Positions 18,830-46,956 of a stretch of DNA of 47,549 nt are shown here, piece after piece. The notes under the pieces are model-generated. The model did no database searches, had not been told where the DNA came from, and was given only the letters and a program-made list of their open reading frames with translations. Numbering within the stretch: the stretch's first letter is position 1; each line of letters opens with the position of its first letter. The DNA comes from a virus. Location of the stretch: positions 1 through 47,549 of the IMG/VR virus record IMGVR_UViG_3300032271_000539. The stretch is one strand, 5' to 3'. The position numbers and the translations under genes were made by a program.

Positions 18830-19917
18830 TATATCTCCGTAAACTCTATACTCATATCAACATAATCAGTAAGAGCATATCTATGAGTTACATTATATGT
18901 AAAATTAGCAATAAACGCTTTGACAATATCAGAACTAATCGCGGGACCGACAAAGCCGGGATAAATCTGATTAATATTCTTAGATTTTGAAGCCGTTGAA
19001 ACAATTATTCCAGTACCATAATAACCATAACTACTTCCAGAATATGAAGAATTACTTGCAGTAATAATATTAGTTCCAGACGTACCAGTAACAACCCAAT
19101 TATTGTTTATGTTGGCATATGTACCAGCAAAACCTTTACTATTATTTATAGTAATACTTGCCCCATCCGAAATGAAATCATTATTATCAACATTTAATGT
19201 AATTACACCATTTGTTTGAACATAAGAATTAATATTAAAATCAGCAGAAAGGTTTGGACTAGAGCCAAAAACATAGGTTATTTTATTACCAGAAGCAGAA
19301 GAAACTTTCCAAGTGCCATTAAATATTTGATCTACACCAGTCACATAAATATAAGGACTTGTATTTATATTCAAATTATGTGGAACTGAGGTAGTCAAAG
19401 TAGCCGTCGCCGTGCCATTAGAAAAATTAGTAAAACTAGCATTAGATATATAAAACTGATAAGCAGCAGAAGCGGGCAAGGATTGGGTTGGGAAATAAGT
19501 AAAGTTTGCAGCAGAAGCCATAGAAGGATCATTGACACCAGATTTCAAATAACTACTAACTGCATTAGGTCCAGCAAAAGCCCAATTTTCTTGAGCATAC
19601 GTCATCTTAACCCATACCGGCTTAAAAACATTTTCTTCATAAAAAGATTTAAGCCAAGCACCCCCAAGATTCCCATCAGCAGTAAAATTCCTACCGCCAG
19701 CAGCGGGGACAGTCTGCCAAGTAACCAAAATTTTTTTCTTATTAGCAGTAACAAACTTACGCATAGTGCCATCAGCCATACGATTAGAATCTTCAATAAT
19801 ATCATAAGAAATTTCTAATGCTTGCCTATTATGATCCGTCAAACTATACGCGACCGGACTTGAATTTGAAATCTCAGGGTCACTAGTAAAAATTTGAATA
19901 ACTGGTATAAAACTCAT
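18829..19917 (-). CDS. Distal tail protein (Dit-like), 362 aa
   Basis: It lies between the tape measure and the hub, the classical place for the distal tail protein, which forms a ring joining tube and tip. The N-terminal part (SLTDHNRQALEISYDIIEDS, RKFVTANKKKILVTWQTVPA) and the C-terminal part (FIANFTYNVTHRYALTDYVD) together look like the split beta sandwich of such a ring protein. Residues about 150-320 form a Ser/Thr/Asn-rich insertion with strand repeats (TATATLTTSVPHNLNINTSP, TVNV/NNNWVVTGTSG types), perhaps an extra domain displayed at the tip. The ATG overlaps the tape-measure stop as TAATG. Confidence 0.65.
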   Translation of the reverse strand: MSFIPVIQIFTSDPEISNSSPVAYSLTDHNRQALEISYDIIEDSNRMADGTMRKFVTANKKKILVTWQTVPAAGGRNFTADGNLGGAWLKSFYEENVFKPVWVKMTYAQENWAFAGPNAVSSYLKSGVNDPSMASAANFTYFPTQSLPASAAYQFYISNASFTNFSNGTATATLTTSVPHNLNINTSPYIYVTGVDQIFNGTWKVSSASGNKITYVFGSSPNLSADFNINSYVQTNGVITLNVDNNDFISDGASITINNSKGFAGTYANINNNWVVTGTSGTNIITASNSSYSGSSYGYYGTGIIVSTASKSKNINQIYPGFVGPAISSDIVKAFIANFTYNVTHRYALTDYVDMSIEFTEI

Positions 19918-22900
19918 TATGCGCCTATTCGCCTATTTGAAGAATTTGCTCTCTCTTTTTGTTTAATTGTATTAATAACAACTCTTGCAACATCATTAGG
20001 ATCAAGATCAGACCCAGAAAGAGTTACATTAACATTATACTGTATGTTGTTAACTGAAGAGTTTGAAGTATCTGTCTGATTAGGAACAACACGCACATTA
20101 CTTGAAGGCGTATCAAACTTCTTACTAGTTACACTCTTAAGGTTACCAAGATTGCCTGATATATACCTAGGAATACCACCATCTGCGAACTTTCCAATAA
20201 TACCGCCCTTAGCATAACCCTTTACCGACCCACCATCCGAATATTTACCTTCATTGATAGAATCCATAAAACCTACACCATATTTGCTAACGGCACTTGA
20301 ATTAACCACATACTCTCCATTAGACAACATGGCTGGAATATAATCAACATTATTCTGTGGAGTACCACCCTTTGCATAATAATTACTACTAAGGAATGAA
20401 TATCCAAATGTCCCAGCATTCTTGAAATCAGTTAATACATTATCCCAGAAAGTTGGCTTAGGAGCAGCGGCTGGTTTTGGTTTGGGTGCCGCAGGTGGAG
20501 TTGGTGCCTTTGGTGGAGTTGGAGCGGGTGCAGGGCTTGATGGTGATGTAGGTGTAGGCGTGGGCGTAGGTGTTGGGCTTGGAGTTGGCTTAGGAGTAGG
20601 TTTTGGTTTTTCAGGAAGTTGTGTCCAATTTTGTCCTGTTGCTTTTTTATAAATATAGGGGAACTCATTCCTGTAATAATTAATACGCGCTGCTCTAGGG
20701 TCTTTAGGATCAGGAACAATATCATGCAGGAAACCCCAAGGCTTAGTATTTTTCATCCAGTTACTTGTGTATGAATGCATAACTTTACCTTGGTATGCTC
20801 CATCATAAAGTTTACTAGTATTAATTTTGGCAGGTTTAAAATATTCACTAGGTATCTGGAAAAGACCTGCTTTAAAATCCCTATACTGTGTCAAGCCAGT
20901 GCGAGGATTCCTTAAAGCCTCATTTCCTCCAGACTCTTCCATTGCTACAGACCATGCAGTTAAAAGTCCAGCCTTGGTAAATCCTGCCTTTTGAAGAACT
21001 TTAACTAAATCCGTATCTTTTATGTAATGTGGGAAATCGCCACCTCCGGGGGATGCGCCGGGACCAAAATCACCTTTATCTTCATAAAAATCTTTTCCAG
21101 TTGCTTTTTTATAAATTCCCGGAAAAATCTTTTCCATACTCCTATAAGTTGATACTCTAGGATCATTGGTATTCATAACTACATCATGCAAGAAACCCCA
21201 AGGTCCAGTATTAGTCATCCAATTTTTTGTATAAGAATGCATAAGGTTAGACTGATACTTAGCATCATATATTTTACTTACATTTGCTTTCATTGATGTA
21301 AATAAATTACTAGGAATACCAAAAATACCAGCCTTATACCTACTTCGATCAACACCTACTGGTGATGGAGTTTTCATTTTTTCATCTCCGCCAGAAACTG
21401 TTTCAGCCACCGACCAAGCAATCATTAATTGAATTTTATCTTTAAAATCTTTATTTAAAATTTTTGCAAGATCTACCTGACCAATAATATGTGATGGTTG
21501 TACTCCACCGGGTCCACTATTTTCACTAGTTGGTTTACTTGGCGTAGTAAATGTTTTTCCAACACCGCCAGTAGATCCAACAGCAAACTTTTTAGCATTA
21601 ACAGAATCCATAAAACCAGTACCATAATGATTAACAGAATCTGATTTTACTACATATTCACCATTTGATAATCTAGCAGGAATAGAATCACTAGTACCTG
21701 TTCCCGGACCATAAACCTTGCCGCCGGATGCAAAACTTAATGCTGCTTTCATTGGAATAACTATATTCTTAATCTGATTAACAACATCTGTCAGTGAAGT
21801 GGTTGGGGAAGTTGAAGATGCTGTACTAGAAGTAGAAGTAGGTGTAGAAGAAGGCTGCTGGCCTCCTGCACCACCTGCGCGATCTGCACCGCCTCTTCCT
21901 GCCCCAGCACCAGTATTTCCAATATCATTTGGACCGTTAACGCCGGGAGAAACATAGACATGCATTTCATCTACTAATTTGCCATAATCTCCACCCCAAC
22001 TTAATTTACCCATCAAAGATTTAAGAATATTGTGTACGGCTTTTGTTTCAGAATTAGTCATATGTCTTTTATTATCTGCTTTCAAAATGTCGTATCTAAT
22101 ATCAATCGCATAACCAGCATGATCAGATATACCACTTGATGCTCTGGCCTGTCTAAACTCATATGAATCTAATGGACCCTTTTTCAAAGTCAATCTGCCT
22201 CCACCAAGGGCGGGGCTTGATTGCCACTGGCTAAGGAAGTTTTGGAATAAAGGTCCAGCCCAATCAGCAACAGTAATATTTCTTCCGCCTGCCACTGGGA
22301 AGGTTTCAAGTTTTTTAGGAGGTGCAACATGCCCTGAAAGGGTATGTCCACCATTAGCAAATTTACGAATAAATCCACCAACTGCATAATGTCCATTATT
22401 AACAGCATCTAAAAATCCAGTACCATATTTGTCAACAGAAGAAGCCTTAACTACGTATTCACCGTGAGAAAGCATAGCGGGAATAGAATCAGAAGTTTTA
22501 GTTCCCGGTCCATAAATTGGACCACCCTGAGCAAAGGGGGCCGGTAATGGTTTATTATTAGGACCAACCAAAGATGGGGAAGAACCAGCCTGACCCAATG
22601 TTAGGGTAGAAGTACTACCATCTGAAACCCATTTTGCAACGCCGCCGCCTAAATTAATAACTCCATTTTGAATACCAAGAGAAGTAATTGTACCAGTAGA
22701 ATTAAATTTAACTCCACCAGCAGCCATCCACGCCTTCGCAGCGTCAAACGACGGTTTAAGGTTCGCTTCAACCTGTGAGGGTAAAGTTCCAGTATCTTTT
22801 GCAAGTTGATCAATAGTTTTCTTATGTGCCCTAATAAAATCTGCAAATTTTTCTCCCTTTATCGCCGGACTTTGCATATATTTATCAATGGCACTAACTT

Positions 22901-25900
22901 GAAGAGTAATGTCTGCAGAATTCTTAGCAGCAGTGGCAGCAGCAGATGCTGCAAGTTTATTATTTCGATCAATTGAGTCTTGATAATTTTGTTGCTGAGA
23001 ATCGAAGGTGTCTTGTTGCGATTGCATCATTGCATCAAATCTATCCTGATTTTTCTGCATAGCATCACTAAGTTTATTAGCAGCATTTGTTGCTGCATCA
23101 ATCTTACTTTGATCTTTAGCATCTGCCGCATCTTTAGCCTTAAGATCTGCTTGACGGTTAAGTTCATCGTTGTATTGACTTTGAGCAAGCGCCAAGCCAA
23201 GGAGGTCACCAGAATTTCTTGCCCTTGAAACATCATTTTCAAGATTCTTTAATGTAAGATCCTGCTGTGCTTGTTGTTGCTTCTTGTCATAAAGTTTCTG
23301 ACGAGCATCCATTTCTTTACGAATAGATTCAATATACTTATTCTTACCCTTAATTTCTTCTTGAATACGTTTTTGAGATTCATTAAACGCTTTTTGTTCT
23401 TCTTTTTGATTTTTAGCAAAATCTTTAGCATTTTTCTGAGAACTTGCTTGGAGTTTAGCATTTAAAGCAGCATAGTCTATAGAAGTTCCAGTAGATTCTT
23501 TATTCGCAAAAGTTTGTTCAGCATTTTGATATGTCAATTGATCTTGAGCATTTGTAAGTAACTTACCGCTCCTATCTTGACTAATTGCTTTTAATTGACC
23601 CGTTGTCAAAGACAGACCTTGAGCCATTAAATTCAAACCAGACATAAAATTACCAACAGAAGCATCAGTACCCTGCAAACTCGTTAAAAGTTGCTTAAAT
23701 CCATCAGGCATTTGAGAAACAATTTGATTTAATGCTTGAAAACCAGTATTTGTAACACTCGCAAAAGAATCTCCGTTAATTTTATTTCCATCAACTCCGC
23801 CAGCACCAACAGCACCAGTCAAATAGTCTGGAAGACTTTTTAGAAAATCTTTAAATTGTGTCGGGTTTAAAGAACCTATTGCTTGAGATAATGGTTGAAC
23901 AGTTTCAGAATTAAATTTATTTAAAAGATTCTGAAGACCTGTTAATGATTTCTGTGTTCCATCAGAACCAAGATTTTTATTTAATTCTCCAAGACCATAT
24001 ACAAATTTGTTTAATTTATCTGTTGCTTCTTGAATTGTATCTGTTTGTAAAACTCCTGCAGCCTTTGAAACATTAGAAATAGAAGAATCACTACTTGTTA
24101 AAAGGTCATTACCCGTTTTTTTACCCTTAACTGCATCATCTATTGTTTGTTGAGTAACAGAAGCAAGATCAGAAAATTTAAAATCAGGTGAAAGTTTTGA
24201 ATAATTACTCTGAATTGAATCCATTACAAATTTGATAGAATTATTGCTCGCTGCTTGAACATCACCGGCAAGAGAGTTTCTTCCATACGCTTTAAATCCT
24301 GCATAAAATTCAGGCTTATCTATAGGAGCATAGGATTTATTTTGAGAAATAATATCATCTAAAGCGCGAGCCTGAATGTTAATACCTGACTTAGCATAAT
24401 CCTCAATTTGTTTGCTAACCTGATTTAAAGCATTCTGAGTTGTTATAAAACTTACCCCTGCCGCTTTAGCATTTGCCAATAAATCTACTTTTGCTTGATC
24501 GGCAGTTCCTCCTGCAGCAATAGTAGAGCGATATTGATCTTGTAACATTTTTACTTGATCTGCTGGAGTAGCAGCAGATAAAGTTTTTAAATAATTCTTA
24601 GTTGCAGAATCAGCAGAATTCTTTAAAGCATCAGACAATTGATCAATTGCTGTTCTAAGAGCAGTAGCATTTGAAGTAGCATTGCCAAAATTAATATCAG
24701 CAATTGTTTTAACATGCAATCCAAACATCTGCATAGCATCCGAACTAACTTTAAATTGTCCAGTAAGAGCAGACATGGAATCTCTTGTAACCTGTAAGGA
24801 CGCTTCAAATTTTCTCTGTGCTTCTTCCTGTGCGCCTTGAATTCCTCCATATATTGCACCAATAATCGGTCCACCCAGTAAAGCCAATGGAGCAAGTTCG
24901 GGGGCAAACATTGAAACTGTGCTACCTATAGATAAGCCTGTGGCACCGCCGGAAAGTGCTGAAGACATTGCATTGGGACCACCACTAGACTGCTCGATGT
25001 TAGAAGAAGCAACAGAAGCAATACCAGATAATGCTTGAGAGGCCATCATTGCTCCAAATCCCCCTCCAGCACTTAAGGCTTTGCCAAACTTTCCGCCCAT
25101 TTTACTTAATGTTCCTTGACCACCCATATTATTCAGCATATCAAGTTTTTCTTGTTGCATTGCAAGAGTTTTTTCCTGATCAATTTGTGCTTTCTTCATT
25201 TGATCAGCCATTTGATTTGCTGATTGCGCTTCTTGTTGAGCGTCCTGCATTCTTATTTTTGCTGATTTAAGTTCTTCTTCTGCTGCGGCAATTTGTTCTT
25301 TATTTGCCTCAGAAGAAACTTGCTTTAAATTTTTAATAAAAGATTCTTGCGCTTTATAACTATTAATTGCTTCAACGGCTGCATCATTTGCAGATTTTGC
25401 CACATTTTTTGCCGCAGACAATTCAGAATTAATTGAAGATAATTTATCTTTAGAAGCCTTAATTTGTTGCTTATATGCATCAACTTGCGCTTGGAAAGCC
25501 TTATTTTTCCAAAGTTTAATCTGATCATTCTGAGATTTATCCTGACTATCATCGGATTTTTCAACAGTTGACATTTTTTGTGGACCCTCAACTACTGAAC
25601 CGCCCATTCTAGGAACATCACTAGGAACACTTAAAGTCTTCTTATTATTAGGATCAACACTTCTATTAATCTGATTCTTAACATTATTTGCTGCTTCATT
25701 AACAGCAGTCATAGAAACTTTTGTTTCATTAACAGAAACATCTAATTGCTTAAAACCTTCAATCATTTGCTTAATTGCATTAGAAGATGCTTTAAAATCT
25801 AATTCTTGTCTTCTAAGAGTTTGTTTTCCAACACCTCCCGCCATCATCATTATTGATTCACCAGAATTATAAGGATCACCTGATCCTGTATTCAATTTAG

Positions 25901-28900
25901 CAATTCCGCCATTAGCAAATTTGCGGGAATTAATAGCATCAACAAAACCTACACCATAATGTTTAACAGCATCAGCATTCACTACATATTCGCCATTGGA
26001 AAGCATGGCGGGAATCATATCATCTTTAGGACCGCCCGGACCTGAAACATATGTTCCTTTTGCAAGACGCAGCATACCACCGTTAGAAAGCCGAACACCC
26101 TTTTCATCAAGTTTTATCATTGCTTCAATAACAGAAGATCCCATATTTTCTTCTGGGTATTTCCTAGACTCTTTACTAATTGAACCTGTAGCAAAAATTT
26201 GATCTGAAGCCATTGCGTATGGAGGATTATCAATATACCTATTAGCAATACCTTCCAAGATGCTAACAAATTTATCCTTAATAGTCGGATCTTTGTATGC
26301 TTTTCTGGTTGACTGAGCAGCAACAAAAGACCTTTCCATTCTAGATGCAATATCTGAGGCAAATATTTGTTCCGCCGGAATATTTAATTTTATAGATTGT
26401 TCTATAGCCTGATTAACTCTTTGTTGCAAAGAATTTTTCGCAATTTTTAATTGAAGCAATTTTTGTGGATCATTTTCTAATAAATTATTATTTTCCATTA
26501 TATTAAATGCTTCAATTGCTACATTTGCCTCTTTTAAGTTAGCAACTTGACCATTTCTATCAACAACTCTAAAGAAATCATTTTGCATCTCAAAATCAAG
26601 TAGTTCCCCTACTTGTCCTGAAAGACTTGATGTTTTGTTCAAATGTCCAAAAATTTGATTTTCTGCTGAAGTAGCAGAAACAGTACCAATTCCAATTGCG
26701 GATTTACCAGTTGTTCTATCTCCATAAGGAGAGGGCACTGAACCTAGTAAATGTCCATGCTGTAGACCAAAAATATTATTAATTGAATATACATCAAGAT
26801 TTTTTAAATAATTTTTAATATTTGAAGGTAAAGAATCCATTTCTGGAAAATAATTTTTTCTTACATATTCATTTAAATATTTTATTTCATCTGAAGATAA
26901 TTTTCTTGAAGCAAGAATTTTTCTTTGTTCTTTTCCTATATCTTTACCATATCTCATTTTATCTCTGACAAATACGCCCTTTTCATCATCATTCATTCTT
27001 ATAGTTTGAGGATAAATGTCTGTTAGAGTGTTTGAAACTTGCGTTGCCCTATCCATAAGCCCAGAAATAAATTGTGCATCCTCAAAGGAAAGATTTGCAT
27101 CTACCATCAAATTTTCAACAGTATTTAATCTTTTAACTTGACCACCAGTTTCAAAACTGGCAATTCCACCCTTAGCAAAACGACTAATAATACCGCCGTC
27201 TTTTCTACCAGTAACCATAGGCTCAGACCAAGCATACGAAGCCAGTCCCGGCTTATCAGAAACTATAGGAAGAAGAGGATCATACTTTCTATACCCAAGT
27301 TGATGCTGAAGCATCTGTCGAATGTAATAATCTTCAGAATCAACCTTGTAACCTTGAGTTGGGAACAACTTGTCATACTTACCCTTTTTAAGTTCCGCCA
27401 TAGGCATAGAATACTTACCCTCAAGATATTCTTGAGCAAACTTTAATTCTTCTGGAGTAATACCATAACGCTCTTTATCTGAAGCACCGTCCCATCCCGG
27501 AATATAATTCCGGGCACTAGATGGATTCCTCTTCTTATACCTCTCAACAATGTCTTGAATAGTAAATTTAATTGATTCTGGACCCGGAGGTGCTAGTCGG
27601 GAAAGGAAAGGATCATCAGCATTCTTAGGAATACTAGCAATACCGTAAGGATTAATATATCTTACGCCTGTCTGAGGAATACCATCAGACCTTACAATAA
27701 ATTCTTTCTCACCCATCTTGCCAGAATAGTTGGCTCCCTGAATACCAACAATTGAACTCTTAGGAACATCAACTTCAATAACTCTACCAGTGTCTCCACC
27801 ATCAATAGGTCTACCAAAATTCATAGGTAGAGTTGGATCTAGAGACATTGAATAATATGGTTGTGGTGCTTCAATTGGACCTGCTGTATAACCGAAATGT
27901 CCGGGAGAGAGATTCCTTCCAGTATTAATTCCATTATTGGGGAAACTGACTGCTCTATATAATCTTACAGTTTCGCCGGGGATTTTAGCAAGAGCATCTT
28001 GTATTGATTTTGATCCAGCAGATACAATTTGTGGATCAAGGTTTCTTAAAGGTTCTTTATTTCCCCAGTATTTAGATGCATGTAATTCAAGTGCTGCGGA
28101 TAGGGCTGCCTCATGTTCGCTATTATTAAGTTGATGAGATTCAATAATTCTAGTAAGATCTTCAGTTTTAACATTCTTAAGAACATCAGCATTTCTTGTA
28201 GCGAAGAACTGCTCTACCGCATTACCAATATATAGACTTTCAGGAGTTCTTAAATATGCTTCAATTTCGGCAGATGTTGCCATTGCTTTAGGAATAAGCA
28301 TTTCTGAAAGTGCTGCAAGGCCGCCGGAAGCATACTTATATCTACGAGGATGGTAACCAAATTGTCTGTGATGAGTAAATGAGCCAGATCTTCCCTTAGC
28401 ACTGCCGCCTTTAGCATACCCCATCGATGAATCATAATTCATTTCATTAGAAACATCATTAATCATTCCGCCTGAAGCATATCTTGGAGTAGTTAAAAAT
28501 TCATTTGCTGTTGGAGAAATTTGAGCAGGAGCATTTTCATAATTAGTATTTGCTACCCTTCCACCATTGGCAAACCTACGAGTATTTATAGCATCTAAGA
28601 AACCATTACCGTATTGACTTACTGCTGCTGCATTAACAACATATTCACCATTTGAAAGAAGTGCCGGAATTTTATCATCTTTAGGTCCACCCGGACCAGT
28701 AATTTTACCACCAGAAGCAAATTTAGGAATTACTCTACCAATTCCACCGGGAATTGAAATTTTCCCAATTCCACCAGCCATTGATTCTGCTGCAATAAGA
28801 TTAATTTTTTCTGCAAGAGCCGTTGCCTCCGCAGCCATTTTTTGAGTAGTATCTTTTACAGTATTCCCTAATTCCTGATATGCCATACCAAGAAATTCAA

Positions 28901-31841
28901 GTCCATTAGAAGATGCTGCCAAACTGTTAATCATTGCTGGAGCGAGGCTATCTTTCATAGAGCCTCTTATTCTATCAGCAAGTTTCTCACCCGTCTGAGT
29001 TGAAGTAACTGTAAGAGCATTCTGCATTGCAGCACTCATATTATTATATTCTTGTAAGAACATAGAAGAAGTTGATTTATAGAAATCAGTAGCAATTGCC
29101 CTAAAGTTTTCTGGACCTACTCCTACACCACCGGAAGCCTTAATTGACGCTTCAAACGAGTTGAACGCTTGATCGTAAGTATTTTTTACATCAGCCATAG
29201 CCTTTTGGCGCATACCTGCCCATTGTTCCGGCCCCAATTGCTGATTGAACCAGTTATTTGTATCTTCATAATTTGCGCCCATTTTAGCCAAGGATTTAAA
29301 GGAAGCAACAGCATCGGGATTGATCTCTTCTATTTGCCTCAAAGCCCTAAGTTGTGCTAATTGGTCACCAGATTGCTTTACAGCAGTAACAGTACTTAAT
29401 TCTTTACCATATGCTGAAATTGGACCTTGAGGTTTAATACCTAATTCGTTTAAAACAGTTGTAACAATTTCCGTTGTCATCATCTGTGCAGGAATAAGCG
29501 GTAATGTTTGATCTTGATTTTTTAAATTAATTTCTTTACCTTGTGGAGTATTTGTAAATATTCCGGGAACAATAGAGCGGCTGCCCATAATACTCTGAGT
29601 TATTTCATTTGCTAAACCATGAGAGAAAGTAACACCTCCTACTGGCCCCATCTCTGTTTGCTCTACAAGATTACGCCTAATACCTTTACCGCTTTGGTCT
29701 GTACCTGTTATAAACATTGTATTAACATAACCTGCTTGAGCAAGCACTTGCTCTGGAGTTCTTGCTGCTCCGCCGCCTCCAGATGATGGGACAATATATG
29801 GTCCACCACCAATTGGGTTTCCTTCTGTAGGTCCACCCGGACCACCCATAATTGGAGGAATCCCCCCTCTTTCAACTTGCATGAGTCTTTCAATATTATC
29901 GGTATATCTAGTTAGGGCAACATTAAATAAGTCAAGCATTTTTGCCTGAGTCCCCATTTGAGAACTTATAGTTTCACTTAATTTAGATGATGCTAATTGC
30001 GCTTTATCAATTTCTTCAAAGTAGTTGGACAGTCCCGCTACACCATTTTGAATTGCTTTAAATGGGTTACTCCATCCACCGCCTGACCCTACCCCCTCTT
30101 TAAACATTCGCATCATGTTAGTAAGTTTAAATACTTGTCCTACAAGGTTCGCCATAAGACCAGAGAACATAATGATGGGGCCAAGGATCGCTGCCCCGCC
30201 AAAAAGTCCTCCAATTATATATCTAAGTGGACCTAGTTTTTGAAAAATATTAACAATTGATGTTGCAGCATTAATAACTTTTGTTGCTAAATCTAAGAAT
30301 GCTTGACCAATGGGTAGCAGAGAGGTTTTAAGGCTCTCTACGGCTATTTTAAATCTACCTGAACTAGACTGCTGTAAAACATTTGTTTGTTGCGTAGCGA
30401 TATCTGTAAGGTCTTTAGAACTAAGGCTCATCATATTCATAACTTTGGCAGACTGAGTTCCAGTTCTATTAAAATTATCAAGTAGGGCGGTAACGCGGGC
30501 GGCTTGGAATTTTCCAAATAATTCCGTAATAACCTGCTGACGGGCAAGTTGTGGAAGTTTATTTAAAGCCGCTTGAAGTGATTCAATCATTCCAACAACA
30601 TTGCCAGTGTTTTCTTTTACAAGGTTCGGTAGATCGATACCATATTCTTTAAGTGCCATTACTGAGGCTTTTGTTGGAACAATTAATCTTTGCAAGGAAT
30701 TCTTAAGAGCATTTGCTCCGTCTGCTGCCCCGACGCCGCCTTCTTTCATTGCTACCAGAAAAGCAACGGTATCCTTATAGGTTCCACCCAAATTTTGTAC
30801 AATTGGTCCCACGCGAGGAATAGCATCAATCAAATCTTTCATTGTTGTACTAGTTGCTGCTTGAGCAGCACTGAAAAAGTTCATAGCATCAGCAGTCTGG
30901 CTTGTACTTAATTTATAAGCAGTTTGGAGAGAAATGGTGGCTTTCATTGCTGATTGCATATCTGTTTCACCTAGTACCATTGCTTGTGAAACTGTTTTAG
31001 TTAAATTAATTAATTGATCTTGCGTATAACCAGCAGCAGACAATGCTGCTGCGACTGATGTAGTCTCTTGGGCACTTTGTCCATACATATTAGACATTTG
31101 TTGAGCAACTTGTTGAACTTGAGTTTTAATCTTGTCAAGTTCCGCCTGTGAAGGAAGAGCCTTTGTAAAGGCTTGACCTGCTGCCCCGCCAATACCATAA
31201 GTACGTTGAAGCATTTGCATGTTTTTATCAACTTGGTAATACATGTTTGCAAGTCCGGCACCTGCTGCTGCAAGAGGTACTGTGAAGCCAACTGTTAACT
31301 GACGACCGGCCCACTGAGTATTCTTACCAAAATTAATGATTTTATTACTTGCATCCATCATTGCTGTGTTATAAGCCTGTTGTTGAATTGTTGCTACAGC
31401 ACTCTTTTGAGCAACAGAACCCATATCAGTAATTACTTGAGCATACCCAGACTTAGCAGCACTAGGAACTACAAAAGACTCAGAAATTTTTGCTTGCGCT
31501 TGAGCAATAATATTAAGGTAAGGAATATTTTCTTTAGAACGGTTTTTCCAAATATCAAAATATTGAGAAGTAGTAAATTTACCTTTTACAAATTGTTCCG
31601 TTAAATGTGCGGTAGCATCTGAAACTTTTACTGTTTCAACTTGCATATTCCTTAAAGAATTAACAGTTGTTAAAAAAGAATTTTCAGCACTTTTAAGACC
31701 GGCCTCAAGTTCTTTAGTAAAACCCGCGCCAATAGATTGACTATTAACATTAGCAATAGAAACTTTAAGTTTATCTAATTGAGCATATATAGCAGCAAAA
31801 TTAGCATTACCAACTACTTCAAATTCTATACGTTGGGTCAT
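19917..31841 (-). CDS. Tape measure protein with multiple embedded enzyme domains (3974 aa)
   Basis: It sets tail length and leaves with the DNA. Order along the chain: phage-tail tape-measure core about 190-460; membrane-like helix about 540-570; GEYVVNA module copy 1 (about 1041-1094); ADP-ribosyltransferase-like domain about 1270-1400 (R1296 in LYRAVSF, SMS at 1331-1333, E1378-K-E1380); an unassigned helical region about 1400-1920; module copy 2 (about 1926-1978); coiled coils about 2100-2240 and 2800-2960; copy 3 (about 3102-3155); M15-type zinc peptidase about 3180-3300 (H3241, D3247, H3294); copy 4 (about 3369-3423); two lysozyme-like domains about 3450-3590 and 3604-3740; Pro/Thr linker about 3745-3798; copy 5 (about 3819-3871). 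The start overlaps the G-T stop (ATGA). Identity as a tape measure is firm; enzyme activities are inferred from motifs. Confidence 0.92.
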   Translation of the reverse strand: MTQRIEFEVVGNANFAAIYAQLDKLKVSIANVNSQSIGAGFTKELEAGLKSAENSFLTTVNSLRNMQVETVKVSDATAHLTEQFVKGKFTTSQYFDIWKNRSKENIPYLNIIAQAQAKISESFVVPSAAKSGYAQVITDMGSVAQKSAVATIQQQAYNTAMMDASNKIINFGKNTQWAGRQLTVGFTVPLAAAGAGLANMYYQVDKNMQMLQRTYGIGGAAGQAFTKALPSQAELDKIKTQVQQVAQQMSNMYGQSAQETTSVAAALSAAGYTQDQLINLTKTVSQAMVLGETDMQSAMKATISLQTAYKLSTSQTADAMNFFSAAQAATSTTMKDLIDAIPRVGPIVQNLGGTYKDTVAFLVAMKEGGVGAADGANALKNSLQRLIVPTKASVMALKEYGIDLPNLVKENTGNVVGMIESLQAALNKLPQLARQQVITELFGKFQAARVTALLDNFNRTGTQSAKVMNMMSLSSKDLTDIATQQTNVLQQSSSGRFKIAVESLKTSLLPIGQAFLDLATKVINAATSIVNIFQKLGPLRYIIGGLFGGAAILGPIIMFSGLMANLVGQVFKLTNMMRMFKEGVGSGGGWSNPFKAIQNGVAGLSNYFEEIDKAQLASSKLSETISSQMGTQAKMLDLFNVALTRYTDNIERLMQVERGGIPPIMGGPGGPTEGNPIGGGPYIVPSSGGGGAARTPEQVLAQAGYVNTMFITGTDQSGKGIRRNLVEQTEMGPVGGVTFSHGLANEITQSIMGSRSIVPGIFTNTPQGKEINLKNQDQTLPLIPAQMMTTEIVTTVLNELGIKPQGPISAYGKELSTVTAVKQSGDQLAQLRALRQIEEINPDAVASFKSLAKMGANYEDTNNWFNQQLGPEQWAGMRQKAMADVKNTYDQAFNSFEASIKASGGVGVGPENFRAIATDFYKSTSSMFLQEYNNMSAAMQNALTVTSTQTGEKLADRIRGSMKDSLAPAMINSLAASSNGLEFLGMAYQELGNTVKDTTQKMAAEATALAEKINLIAAESMAGGIGKISIPGGIGRVIPKFASGGKITGPGGPKDDKIPALLSNGEYVVNAAAVSQYGNGFLDAINTRRFANGGRVANTNYENAPAQISPTANEFLTTPRYASGGMINDVSNEMNYDSSMGYAKGGSAKGRSGSFTHHRQFGYHPRRYKYASGGLAALSEMLIPKAMATSAEIEAYLRTPESLYIGNAVEQFFATRNADVLKNVKTEDLTRIIESHQLNNSEHEAALSAALELHASKYWGNKEPLRNLDPQIVSAGSKSIQDALAKIPGETVRLYRAVSFPNNGINTGRNLSPGHFGYTAGPIEAPQPYYSMSLDPTLPMNFGRPIDGGDTGRVIEVDVPKSSIVGIQGANYSGKMGEKEFIVRSDGIPQTGVRYINPYGIASIPKNADDPFLSRLAPPGPESIKFTIQDIVERYKKRNPSSARNYIPGWDGASDKERYGITPEELKFAQEYLEGKYSMPMAELKKGKYDKLFPTQGYKVDSEDYYIRQMLQHQLGYRKYDPLLPIVSDKPGLASYAWSEPMVTGRKDGGIISRFAKGGIASFETGGQVKRLNTVENLMVDANLSFEDAQFISGLMDRATQVSNTLTDIYPQTIRMNDDEKGVFVRDKMRYGKDIGKEQRKILASRKLSSDEIKYLNEYVRKNYFPEMDSLPSNIKNYLKNLDVYSINNIFGLQHGHLLGSVPSPYGDRTTGKSAIGIGTVSATSAENQIFGHLNKTSSLSGQVGELLDFEMQNDFFRVVDRNGQVANLKEANVAIEAFNIMENNNLLENDPQKLLQLKIAKNSLQQRVNQAIEQSIKLNIPAEQIFASDIASRMERSFVAAQSTRKAYKDPTIKDKFVSILEGIANRYIDNPPYAMASDQIFATGSISKESRKYPEENMGSSVIEAMIKLDEKGVRLSNGGMLRLAKGTYVSGPGGPKDDMIPAMLSNGEYVVNADAVKHYGVGFVDAINSRKFANGGIAKLNTGSGDPYNSGESIMMMAGGVGKQTLRRQELDFKASSNAIKQMIEGFKQLDVSVNETKVSMTAVNEAANNVKNQINRSVDPNNKKTLSVPSDVPRMGGSVVEGPQKMSTVEKSDDSQDKSQNDQIKLWKNKAFQAQVDAYKQQIKASKDKLSSINSELSAAKNVAKSANDAAVEAINSYKAQESFIKNLKQVSSEANKEQIAAAEEELKSAKIRMQDAQQEAQSANQMADQMKKAQIDQEKTLAMQQEKLDMLNNMGGQGTLSKMGGKFGKALSAGGGFGAMMASQALSGIASVASSNIEQSSGGPNAMSSALSGGATGLSIGSTVSMFAPELAPLALLGGPIIGAIYGGIQGAQEEAQRKFEASLQVTRDSMSALTGQFKVSSDAMQMFGLHVKTIADINFGNATSNATALRTAIDQLSDALKNSADSATKNYLKTLSAATPADQVKMLQDQYRSTIAAGGTADQAKVDLLANAKAAGVSFITTQNALNQVSKQIEDYAKSGINIQARALDDIISQNKSYAPIDKPEFYAGFKAYGRNSLAGDVQAASNNSIKFVMDSIQSNYSKLSPDFKFSDLASVTQQTIDDAVKGKKTGNDLLTSSDSSISNVSKAAGVLQTDTIQEATDKLNKFVYGLGELNKNLGSDGTQKSLTGLQNLLNKFNSETVQPLSQAIGSLNPTQFKDFLKSLPDYLTGAVGAGGVDGNKINGDSFASVTNTGFQALNQIVSQMPDGFKQLLTSLQGTDASVGNFMSGLNLMAQGLSLTTGQLKAISQDRSGKLLTNAQDQLTYQNAEQTFANKESTGTSIDYAALNAKLQASSQKNAKDFAKNQKEEQKAFNESQKRIQEEIKGKNKYIESIRKEMDARQKLYDKKQQQAQQDLTLKNLENDVSRARNSGDLLGLALAQSQYNDELNRQADLKAKDAADAKDQSKIDAATNAANKLSDAMQKNQDRFDAMMQSQQDTFDSQQQNYQDSIDRNNKLAASAAATAAKNSADITLQVSAIDKYMQSPAIKGEKFADFIRAHKKTIDQLAKDTGTLPSQVEANLKPSFDAAKAWMAAGGVKFNSTGTITSLGIQNGVINLGGGVAKWVSDGSTSTLTLGQAGSSPSLVGPNNKPLPAPFAQGGPIYGPGTKTSDSIPAMLSHGEYVVKASSVDKYGTGFLDAVNNGHYAVGGFIRKFANGGHTLSGHVAPPKKLETFPVAGGRNITVADWAGPLFQNFLSQWQSSPALGGGRLTLKKGPLDSYEFRQARASSGISDHAGYAIDIRYDILKADNKRHMTNSETKAVHNILKSLMGKLSWGGDYGKLVDEMHVYVSPGVNGPNDIGNTGAGAGRGGADRAGGAGGQQPSSTPTSTSSTASSTSPTTSLTDVVNQIKNIVIPMKAALSFASGGKVYGPGTGTSDSIPARLSNGEYVVKSDSVNHYGTGFMDSVNAKKFAVGSTGGVGKTFTTPSKPTSENSGPGGVQPSHIIGQVDLAKILNKDFKDKIQLMIAWSVAETVSGGDEKMKTPSPVGVDRSRYKAGIFGIPSNLFTSMKANVSKIYDAKYQSNLMHSYTKNWMTNTGPWGFLHDVVMNTNDPRVSTYRSMEKIFPGIYKKATGKDFYEDKGDFGPGASPGGGDFPHYIKDTDLVKVLQKAGFTKAGLLTAWSVAMEESGGNEALRNPRTGLTQYRDFKAGLFQIPSEYFKPAKINTSKLYDGAYQGKVMHSYTSNWMKNTKPWGFLHDIVPDPKDPRAARINYYRNEFPYIYKKATGQNWTQLPEKPKPTPKPTPSPTPTPTPTPTSPSSPAPAPTPPKAPTPPAAPKPKPAAAPKPTFWDNVLTDFKNAGTFGYSFLSSNYYAKGGTPQNNVDYIPAMLSNGEYVVNSSAVSKYGVGFMDSINEGKYSDGGSVKGYAKGGIIGKFADGGIPRYISGNLGNLKSVTSKKFDTPSSNVRVVPNQTDTSNSSVNNIQYNVNVTLSGSDLDPNDVARVVINTIKQKERANSSNRRIGA
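20450..20615 (-). repeat. Pro/Thr-rich low-complexity repeat in the tape measure
   Basis: The DNA is a run of degenerate hexamer-like units encoding KPTPKPTPSPTPTPTPTPTS and then APAPTPPKAPTPPAAPKPKP. On the plus strand it reads as a Gly/Val-rich false frame. It forms a rigid extended linker between the second lysozyme-like domain and the last GEYVVNS module. Length variation by slippage would be expected here. Confidence 0.85.
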
Positions 31842-43945: not shown

Positions 43946-45883
43946 CTATGCGGGAGAAGTTGATTGTGATGTAATATCAACAATTTCACAAACACCGGCT
44001 GAGCAGGCAAGATCCTGAGTACCAGTTGTGCTATCTACCGTTTCATAAAGAGAAAGCATTTCCCAAGTTATGCTGCGAGGGAAATCCTTGACCAATTGAT
44101 CATACTCTTCCTTCTCAATTTCCTGATATGGAGCCTGACGATAAGTATGTTCTGAATAAGGAAGAAAAGAGATACCAGAAACTTCATCAAAATGCTTCCA
44201 TACCCAAGCACCAACTTCCATCCATTCATGATCCTTTACAGAAACAGTAATTGAAGGCTTATGCTCACACCAAGCGCGTTGATAAACTAGCCAAATGTTT
44301 AAATGCTCAACTGCACTAAGATCTTCTCTGAACACAGCATTCGATGGTGCTTTAACTGGAAATGAAAATACAGTAGTATCATTTGGCTTCATAACATCAT
44401 CTTCTGCTGGAACACCAGAATCTTGAAGGAAACGAGTTAAAGGATCTTTTTTGTCACCACGAACAGTTCTAATGTAATACTGACTGTGCCAAGGGTGCAT
44501 TCCTGAAGAAACTCCGGTTAACTGAGAAACAGTTCCAGAAGGCTTAACACAGGTAATAGCAGCAGAAGGATTAATATTAAGTTTCTCTGCCTCAGATTTA
44601 TTTGCATCTACAGCAACTAGACGCAGATCTTCTAATACTTTTGAAAGTTTATCTAAACCATCTTGACCTGAGAAAAACTTATTACCAAATTGTCCCGTAA
44701 TTGAAACGCCTAGCAGTCTTTCTTCTTCAGTATTCTGTTTCCAGATCTTACGAAGATACTTAAAATCAGTAAGAGTGGATTGCCAAGTACCAAGGATAGT
44801 AGCAAGTTGTACCTTTCTAACCATAGACTTTGGAGTGTCATTTTCACGAACTACAACCTCTGAAAGATTGCAGAACTGGTATGGGCGCAAAATAATTTCT
44901 GAGCAAGGATTCGTGCCATAACGAATATTATCGTCCCTACGACCATACTTAGAAGCCTGCATTTGAGCAGCCTTAATATTATAAATGCCGCGCTCACCAG
45001 ACTTAGAATCATAAAGATTCTTCCATTCTTCCATGAAGTCTGCCATTGAAGGCTTTTCTGTGTAAGCAACTGAATTATTAGAAAGTGCGCGATGTCCTTC
45101 TGTTGCCCACCATGAGCCAAACTTGGCCTTAGCCATGTCTGTATCGCTAAGATCAGAAAGGCTGATCATAGCAGAACGACGTACGCCACCAACAACTACA
45201 ACCTCACCAATCTTACACATAATGTCATGTGCTTCAATAGGCTTAAGTTTGCGACCTGCAGCATTGCTAAATGTATAAATGCAGAAATCAAATAGTGCCT
45301 CAAGGGGTTCTGGACCGGAAGCCCTTCCACCGAAGGTCTTCAGTCTAGCACCTGCGGGACGAACTTTTGAAGTATCCCATGATGGGATTTGTCCTGCCCA
45401 AAGCATAGCAAGAAGTTCTCTTAACGCTCTAGCCCAACCAGCCTTAGAATCCTCAACAACAATAACAGTGCCTGACTTCTCAAAATGTTCATTGATAACT
45501 GGAAGTTTATTTACATATACCGACTCAACAGAAAAACCAACTCCAGTTCCACACATAAGGATATACATTGCTTCATCAAAAGAGCGGGGTGAGTCTACTG
45601 GAAGGAATGAGCAATTATATCCAGCAACATGATCTCTTTCTAAAGCGGGTCCAGCAGTCATAACGCCTCTCATAGAAGGCATAATATTCATTGTAAGGAC
45701 AGCATTCTTAATTTCATCAACAAGTTCTTTTTCGGGCCAATAGTTATAGGTTGCAAGATGCCCAACCATAAAGTTAAAGTATCGGTCTACAGTTTCTTCC
45801 CAAGTTTCACGACGGTTTTCTTGCTCTAGCCACCGGGCATAGCGAGATAGGGCAATAAAGTTCTGGAATGGATTTTCAATCAT
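43946..45883 (-). CDS. Adenosylcobalamin-dependent ribonucleoside triphosphate reductase (class II, 645 aa)
   Basis: It reduces ribonucleotides to deoxyribonucleotides using a cobalamin-derived thiyl radical. The active-site set matches the monomeric Lactobacillus leichmannii-type enzyme: C91 (GYNCSF) and C338 (FCNLSE) as the redox pair, C327 as the radical cysteine and E329 (NPCSEI), with the same spacing 327-338 as 408-419. C627 and C632 near the end (ACSAGVCEI) would re-reduce the enzyme. Other motifs are LMCGTGVGFSVE and TCVKPSGTVSQLTGVSSGMH. At 645 residues it is shorter than the about 739-residue bacterial form. It does not need oxygen and supplies precursors for phage DNA, but depends on host vitamin B12. 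Confidence 0.92.
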   Translation of the reverse strand: MIENPFQNFIALSRYARWLEQENRRETWEETVDRYFNFMVGHLATYNYWPEKELVDEIKNAVLTMNIMPSMRGVMTAGPALERDHVAGYNCSFLPVDSPRSFDEAMYILMCGTGVGFSVESVYVNKLPVINEHFEKSGTVIVVEDSKAGWARALRELLAMLWAGQIPSWDTSKVRPAGARLKTFGGRASGPEPLEALFDFCIYTFSNAAGRKLKPIEAHDIMCKIGEVVVVGGVRRSAMISLSDLSDTDMAKAKFGSWWATEGHRALSNNSVAYTEKPSMADFMEEWKNLYDSKSGERGIYNIKAAQMQASKYGRRDDNIRYGTNPCSEIILRPYQFCNLSEVVVRENDTPKSMVRKVQLATILGTWQSTLTDFKYLRKIWKQNTEEERLLGVSITGQFGNKFFSGQDGLDKLSKVLEDLRLVAVDANKSEAEKLNINPSAAITCVKPSGTVSQLTGVSSGMHPWHSQYYIRTVRGDKKDPLTRFLQDSGVPAEDDVMKPNDTTVFSFPVKAPSNAVFREDLSAVEHLNIWLVYQRAWCEHKPSITVSVKDHEWMEVGAWVWKHFDEVSGISFLPYSEHTYRQAPYQEIEKEEYDQLVKDFPRSITWEMLSLYETVDSTTGTQDLACSAGVCEIVDITSQSTSPA

Positions 45884-45936: not shown

Positions 45937-46956
45937 TCAACTTTCTAAATGAAGATTTTTATAAATATTTTTTAGTCGTCCGTATGCTGGTCTGGTGACT
46001 TTAATCCAATCAAATTGATCATGCGCTTTAAAAGAATTTTTAAATGCGAGGTCAGAAAGGTATCCATAATTATTTCTAGCATTTGCCATAGCATTTTTAA
46101 ATTGTTGCTCGTTTGGACGGTACATTTGACCGGGATGAATTGTAGGCCACGGTGTCTGAGTTATGGTAGAATCTATAGGAACTGTGATGAGATCTTTGTA
46201 ATCTGACCATTCATAAGTTGTAATAACTGGAATACCCATAGCAATTGCTTGAAGAGGTATGAAACCAAACCCCTCCCCCCATGTTGGATATATAACTACA
46301 TCTGCCATTTCGTAAAGTTGAATCATTTGTACTGGATTTAATAAATCTGTTGTTACGGTTATATTGCTATATAGCATTCCGGGGGATGCATTAAAACCAT
46401 TTTTTTTAGTTGTAATATTGTTGGCGTTAGTGCCTTTAATAATTAATCTATATTCAGGGTTATCGCCAAAGAGTTCTATGAAGCAACGTGCAGCCATTGG
46501 TCCATCTTTACGGTTATAAGGCTCGCCAATAAATAGAAAAGTAAAAGGTTTATTTTTATCGTACTTGCGTCTTTTAGGTTTAAACTCTGGATTAATACCA
46601 TGTATGTATGGGAAAATTTTCTTATCTGGAAGGTTTTTCTGAAAAACTTGACGACACCAAGATGATGTGGTCCAAATCTCATCGCAAGCATTCATCTTAG
46701 GGTACCATTCAGGATGAAATTCTGTAGACTCCCAAGGAGTGTATCCTATTTTGTAACCATTTGATAGGAATTTATAATCCGGCGGGAAACCAAAATATAT
46801 TTCTATGTCTGCTTCATAGGGAGTATTATCATTAACTTTTTTGCAATGTACGTCTACTCCTAGTTGTTTCAAGGATCGGTAGGCGTGGTAGGCGGCAGTT
46901 CCGTAACCGACTCTTCGATCTTGATACTCAAAAGACCCTGCCAGATAAACTTTCAT
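45937..46956 (-). CDS. GT-B fold glycosyltransferase, group 1 / GT4-like (339 aa)
   Basis: The N-terminal Rossmann domain begins MKVYLAGSFEYQDRRVGYGT with a GYGTAAYHAYRSLKQLG glycine-rich loop. The C-terminal donor domain contains FTFLFIGEPYNRKDGPMAAR, ADVVIYPTWGEGFGFIPLQA and IAMGIPVITT, which includes the E-x(7)-E-like element of retaining glycosyltransferases. It probably transfers a sugar to a virion protein, the cell wall or a modified base; the acceptor is not shown. It is the first gene of the long minus-strand block, ahead of the ribonucleotide reductase, so it is probably expressed with that gene. The ATG at 46956 lies in the divergent region. Confidence 0.85.
   Translation of the reverse strand: MKVYLAGSFEYQDRRVGYGTAAYHAYRSLKQLGVDVHCKKVNDNTPYEADIEIYFGFPPDYKFLSNGYKIGYTPWESTEFHPEWYPKMNACDEIWTTSSWCRQVFQKNLPDKKIFPYIHGINPEFKPKRRKYDKNKPFTFLFIGEPYNRKDGPMAARCFIELFGDNPEYRLIIKGTNANNITTKKNGFNASPGMLYSNITVTTDLLNPVQMIQLYEMADVVIYPTWGEGFGFIPLQAIAMGIPVITTYEWSDYKDLITVPIDSTITQTPWPTIHPGQMYRPNEQQFKNAMANARNNYGYLSDLAFKNSFKAHDQFDWIKVTRPAYGRLKNIYKNLHLES

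Follow-up and report, generated by a model that had tools for sequence, protein, structure and literature searches.

ADP-ribosyltransferases (ARTs) carried by phage virions are known from several settings. Alt of phage T4 is virion-borne and injected (PMC5512222), and surveys of phage ARTs cover Alt, ModA and ModB, fusions to MuF and portal proteins, polyvalent proteins and N4-type RNA polymerases (PMC5512222, PMC9503650); MuF-VIP2 fusions have been described in Microbacterium phages (PMC7302621). Among tail proteins, pb2, the tape measure of T5, undergoes cleavage beside its muralytic domain and is expelled on receptor contact; it has been proposed to form a channel while its enzyme part, perhaps after refolding, reaches the periplasm (PMC10038345). 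Here we analyse the virus record IMGVR_UViG_3300032271_000539 over its positions 1 to 47,549 (the window, a stretch of 47,549 nucleotides), in which the tape measure protein contains a putative ART domain. In the open-licence literature we found no description of an ART inside a tape measure or of the tape measure as its carrier, and the word 'tape' is absent from the surveys PMC5512222 and PMC9503650; an earlier reading of the window's sequence (the original prediction) had likewise known of no description of the arrangement. On our reading, residues 1187-1411 of the protein, with an extension to about residue 1545, would form a mono-ADP-ribosyltransferase of the R-S-ExE type, an exchangeable cargo that, once ejected, modifies the host, and we give this a probability of roughly 0.66. 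Taken by itself, the assignment of the domain as an ART, by both descent and active site, is very probable.

In the domain, the R, SxS and ExE motifs follow one another in the order, and at the spacing, seen in T4 ModA, ModB and Alt of the Alt/VIP2 R-S-E clade. Those enzymes, however, are products of separate genes, Alt is carried in the head and not in the tail tube, and their sequence similarity to the domain lies at the detection limit. MuF-ART and portal-ART fusions likewise place an ART on a structural protein of the virion, with delivery predicted (PMC9503650, PMC7302621), but these have a head protein as carrier, whereas the present ART is carried by the tape measure, at an internal position between repeats. 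Polyvalent proteins with ARTs are also large multidomain virion proteins for which injection together with the DNA is predicted; they carry ARTs of the H-Y-D Tox-ART-HYD2 clade (PMC5512222), in contrast to the R-S-E domain described here. A polyvalent-type HYD ART was considered and rejected, as the active site is R-S-E and not H-Y-D.

The tape measure gene occupies 19917..31841 on the minus strand, the strand of all its parts given below, and is one open reading frame encoding 3974 amino acids. We assign the product as a tape measure because of its sequence matches to PhageMin_Tail (Pfam, 7e-31) and to many PHROG tape measure families (E down to 6e-107), and gene order agrees. Residue numbers and motifs were checked against the translation of this frame. 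R1296, the predicted arginine for binding nicotinamide adenine dinucleotide (NAD), lies on the first strand in ETVRLYRAVSF (27954..27956) and aligns with R72 of T4 ModA. The STS-like motif S1331-M-S1333, within YYSMS (1329-1333), is encoded at 27843..27851 and aligns with the SxS of the ModA/ModB family. The ExE motif E1378-K-E1380 in GEKEFIVR (27702..27710), in which E1380 is the predicted catalytic glutamate, aligns with E163-x-E165 of ModA.

Relatives were collected by scanning viral contigs with the N-terminus of the tape measure and with a growing alignment of the domain. A scan with the single ART sequence as query returned no relatives, whereas the N-terminal query did find them, and the final viral scan added no further members. 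The resulting family has eight members, the window tape measure and those of L002, L003, L004, L006, L008, L011 and L012, where L-numbers denote related environmental phage contigs. The domain lies within a tape measure in 8/8 members, and no free-standing copy occurs among 4540 reading frames of 90 loci; in the collections searched it is confined to tape measures. Its identity to the window sequence ranges from 80% to 33% and falls to 29% between members. Across the eight homologues 33/225 alignment columns are invariant, all five named residues among them, and the probability that five columns named beforehand would all be invariant by chance is about 5e-5, as estimated from 33/225. Because all five are invariant among homologues as low as 29% identical, the motif is more than a chance arrangement. 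The strongest single result is that positions named from one sequence were all kept by relatives unseen at the time.

The positions named in the original prediction are exact on the translation, and its ordered R-S-E signature of the ExE type holds throughout the family: R, SxS and ExE follow one another in ART order, none is missing from any of the eight homologues, and the last motif is ExE rather than QxE in each. The extent was predicted less well. A domain of about residues 1270-1400 is correct as to location and too small; the ART-like core, supported by the homologues, the structural models and the comparison with ModA/ModB, spans residues 1187-1411 (27609..28283). A C-terminal extension conserved with the core, residues 1412-1545 (27207..27608), is 85% identical in L003 and has homologous stretches in L002, L004, L006 and L008. 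The ratio of nonsynonymous to synonymous substitution rates (dN/dS) of the module is 0.17 and 0.21, and the module is thus under purifying selection and kept functional.

In the proposed reaction, NAD+ would be bound by R1296 and the SxS strand, and E1380 would transfer ADP-ribose to an arginine residue in a host protein; E1378 would be the glutamate of ExE that is linked to specificity for arginine. The same site could instead belong to an ART-like NAD+ hydrolase or a binder of NAD or ADP-ribose, ejected against NAD-dependent host defence and without protein-modifying transferase activity; R-S-ExE sites bind NAD+ in known ARTs, and NAD-centred conflict between phage and host is widespread (PMC9503650). 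The invariant ExE, however, is the configuration of arginine transferases. A pure hydrolase need not retain the first glutamate of ExE, and we regard this alternative as distinctly unlikely.

The profile of the domain was compared by hhalign with a reference alignment of T4 ModA, ModB and five relatives. Without motif positions being supplied, LYRA of the domain fell on LYRG and YYSMSLDP on SFSxD of the ModA/ModB profile, and GEKEF fell on DEQE once the alignment was extended, so that R, SxS and ExE are all in register. The score of 26.7 (E 0.003) compares with 19.7 for the best of 60 column shuffles, 11.9 for the reversed profile and at most 17.4 for other pieces of the tape measure; hhalign in global mode gave no useful alignment. 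No profile match to PF03496 (ADPrib_exo_Tox) above the gathering cut-off of that family was obtained in the window record, in 19 related records or in any of the eight members (0/8). Because PF03496 does not match, the domain is a divergent family and no recognisable member of that one, and it would add an ART family missed by standard libraries. Searches by tblastn against 50,697 phage records found no ART relative (one gave only matches of E = 6), nor did a scan of GTDB with one genome per species, and there is therefore no isolate or host version to point to.

AlphaFold2 models were built from seven or eight sequences. The 359-residue construct reached a mean predicted local distance difference test (pLDDT) value of 71.7 and a predicted template modelling (pTM) score of 0.64, and the 225-residue core 75.2 and 0.75. 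In these models N-terminal helices are followed by the R1296 strand, the S-M-S strand, further strands and a later strand opened by ExE, a predicted order of elements that matches that of ARTs. For both models the best eleven Foldseek matches in the PDB are all ARTs, among them Vis, CDTa, cholera A1, Certhrax, Pierisin-1, KptA and PARP13. Vis, CDTa and Pierisin-1 are solved ARTs and the closest in structure, but they are free toxins and not parts of tape measures, and with weak scores no close kinship to them is claimed. Against the predicted viral proteins of BFVD, six matches fell below 1e-3, including one to a phage head morphogenesis protein.

Several points weigh against the reading of the module as an ejected ART. 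Searches of Pfam, PHROGs, NCBIfam, PADLOC and PDB sequences, with single-sequence and family queries, gave no convincing match to the domain. Kinship to ModA/ModB stands at the edge of detection, because the hhalign probability is just 9%. The leading ART matches in Foldseek have E values of about 0.01-0.3, template modelling (TM) scores mostly of 0.13-0.32 and root-mean-square deviations mostly of 9-16 Å, and because of these weak E values, low TM scores and large deviations the ART fold of the models is not established by superposition. The Foldseek result may be taken as agreement in kind and not as proof of the fold, and the split beta-sandwich of the original prediction is suggested by the eleven best matches and, the scores being marginal, not proven. 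A siphophage tube that already holds several copies of the tape measure has hardly any room for a folded ART, which would therefore have to unfold and later refold, and entry of the module into the host cytoplasm is deduced from its location in the tape measure.

The weak fold scores and the lack of a library match would also suit a purely structural domain of ART-like or unrelated fold, which provides bulk or an anchor for the tape measure and carries its motif by coincidence. Such a domain is hard to reconcile with five catalytic-type positions that are invariant while most other columns vary, with the match in register to ModA/ModB, or with the related tape measures of L014 and L015, which manage without the module. 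We consider it very unlikely.

The module also shows signs of exchange. The tape measures of L014 and L015 are 48% identical to that of the window over the first 660 residues, yet they lack the ART stretch; residues 670-2295 of the window protein (24957..29834) are matched by just about 400-470 amino acids in these two. In the tree of the tape measure backbone, the window and L002 are sisters (91% identity, support 100/99), whereas in the ART tree they are 38% identical and fall into different clades, L002 grouping with L012 (100/100). The synonymous substitution rate (dS) of the pair L006/L011 is 0.16 upstream in the backbone and 0.59 in the ART, while for the window and L003 the upstream value is 1.43 and the ART value 0.78. 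Sliding identity shifts at the module edges in the comparisons of the window with L002 and L003, and reveals a divergent patch inside the ART between L006 and L011. Because backbone and module differ in their trees and in dS, the ART is a module exchanged independently of the tape measure backbone.

The cargo region is bordered by copies of a 50-residue repeat, GPGGPKDDxIPAxLSNGEYVVNAxAV, of which the window tape measure has five copies (28563-28712, 25908-26057, 22377-22526, 21576-21725 and 20232-20381). Repeat 1 (residues 1044-1093, 28563..28712) forms the upstream border of the cargo region and repeat 2 (residues 1929-1978, 25908..26057) the downstream border. The ART lies between two repeat copies in 6/6 of the tape measures first mapped. 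In L012 one copy precedes the ART and the next lies far downstream, and the L011 tape measure is truncated where its contig ends. The ART sits later in L002 and L012, where it follows another module. Copies of the repeat also frame inserts in related tape measures, and the repeat may serve as a unit of folding or mark sites of recombination.

Between the ART and repeat 2 lies a second module, residues 1546-1928 (26058..27206), whose only full homologue, in L003, is 44% identical over the aligned residues. It carries a conserved HGHL...ENQIFGHL stretch, and in L004 and L013 its slot holds a different, perhaps related module (GFERSH...NQLL). Searches with the second module in Pfam and the PDB gave no match; its assignment as a nuclease, considered for the histidine-containing HGHL or ERSH motif, was dropped for want of supporting evidence. 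Alternative, mostly unrelated modules lie at or between repeats in L013 (13193-14428), L002 (13562-14752), L012 (7481-8296) and L008 (9056-9967), none with a convincing Pfam match; those of L013 and L002 comprise residues 1065-1476 and 1190-1586 of their tape measures. This raises the possibility of a tape measure cargo bay, framed by GPGGPxDDxIPAxLSNGEYVV repeats, in which effector modules (the ART and others) are swapped by recombination and delivered through the tail tube. We propose it tentatively and put its chances slightly below even, because the other modules have no assigned identity.

Tape measures occupy the tail tube until infection, when they exit it. The few tape measure copies of each virion would carry the module inside the tube, probably unfolded; it would leave before the DNA or together with it, regain its fold in the host and modify its target early in infection, the role played in T4 by head-packaged Alt. 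We infer both the ADP-ribosyltransferase activity and this delivery, an idea raised in the original prediction that is plausible. An active ART might instead act in the producing cell, on host or virion proteins, or be cleaved off before assembly, with no delivery at all. The tape measures of T5 and lambda are processed during morphogenesis (PMC10038345), and T4 ModA and ModB are, by annotation and the literature (PMC9503650), made and active inside the infected cell. A virion-bound frame would, however, be an odd site for an enzyme needed just in the producer, and all eight homologues are tape measures, with no separate gene among them (0/8); we think this account rather unlikely. An ejected ART would resemble the case of T5 pb2, in which the tape measure likewise holds an enzyme and exits the tail during infection, but known tape measure enzymes open the cell wall, whereas an ART would modify host proteins with NAD+.

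Like pb2, the window tape measure also has stretches that resemble cell-wall enzymes. An M15 peptidase-like stretch (21954-22139) and an SLT-like lysozyme stretch (20736-20999) lie in its C-terminal part as separate segments between repeats; their scores are below the Pfam cut-offs, and they would be the expected cell-wall openers. The PhageMin_Tail conserved segment covers residues 244-443 (30513..31112), and hydrophobic segments lie at residues 539-571 and 2309-2334, one on each side of the ART module. Siphophage head and tail genes adjoin the tape measure gene in an order that resembles the tail genes of Streptomyces phages belonging to the Stanwilliamsviridae. Faust and Wofford are examples, and the tape measures of these phages match the window protein at its N-terminus with 31-34% identity. 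The window, from a virus record, has a guanine-cytosine content of 36%. Genes for a ribonucleotide reductase (43946-45883) and a glycosyltransferase (45937-46956) adjoin the head genes.

Phage effectors that modify the host as soon as infection begins have so far been found mainly in heads, as with Alt, MuF fusions and polyvalent proteins. If the ART reading is correct, the ruler of the tail can also carry an effector, the tail-borne equivalent of the Alt and MuF effectors packaged in heads, and it would become testable whether internal parts of tape measures reach the cytoplasm.
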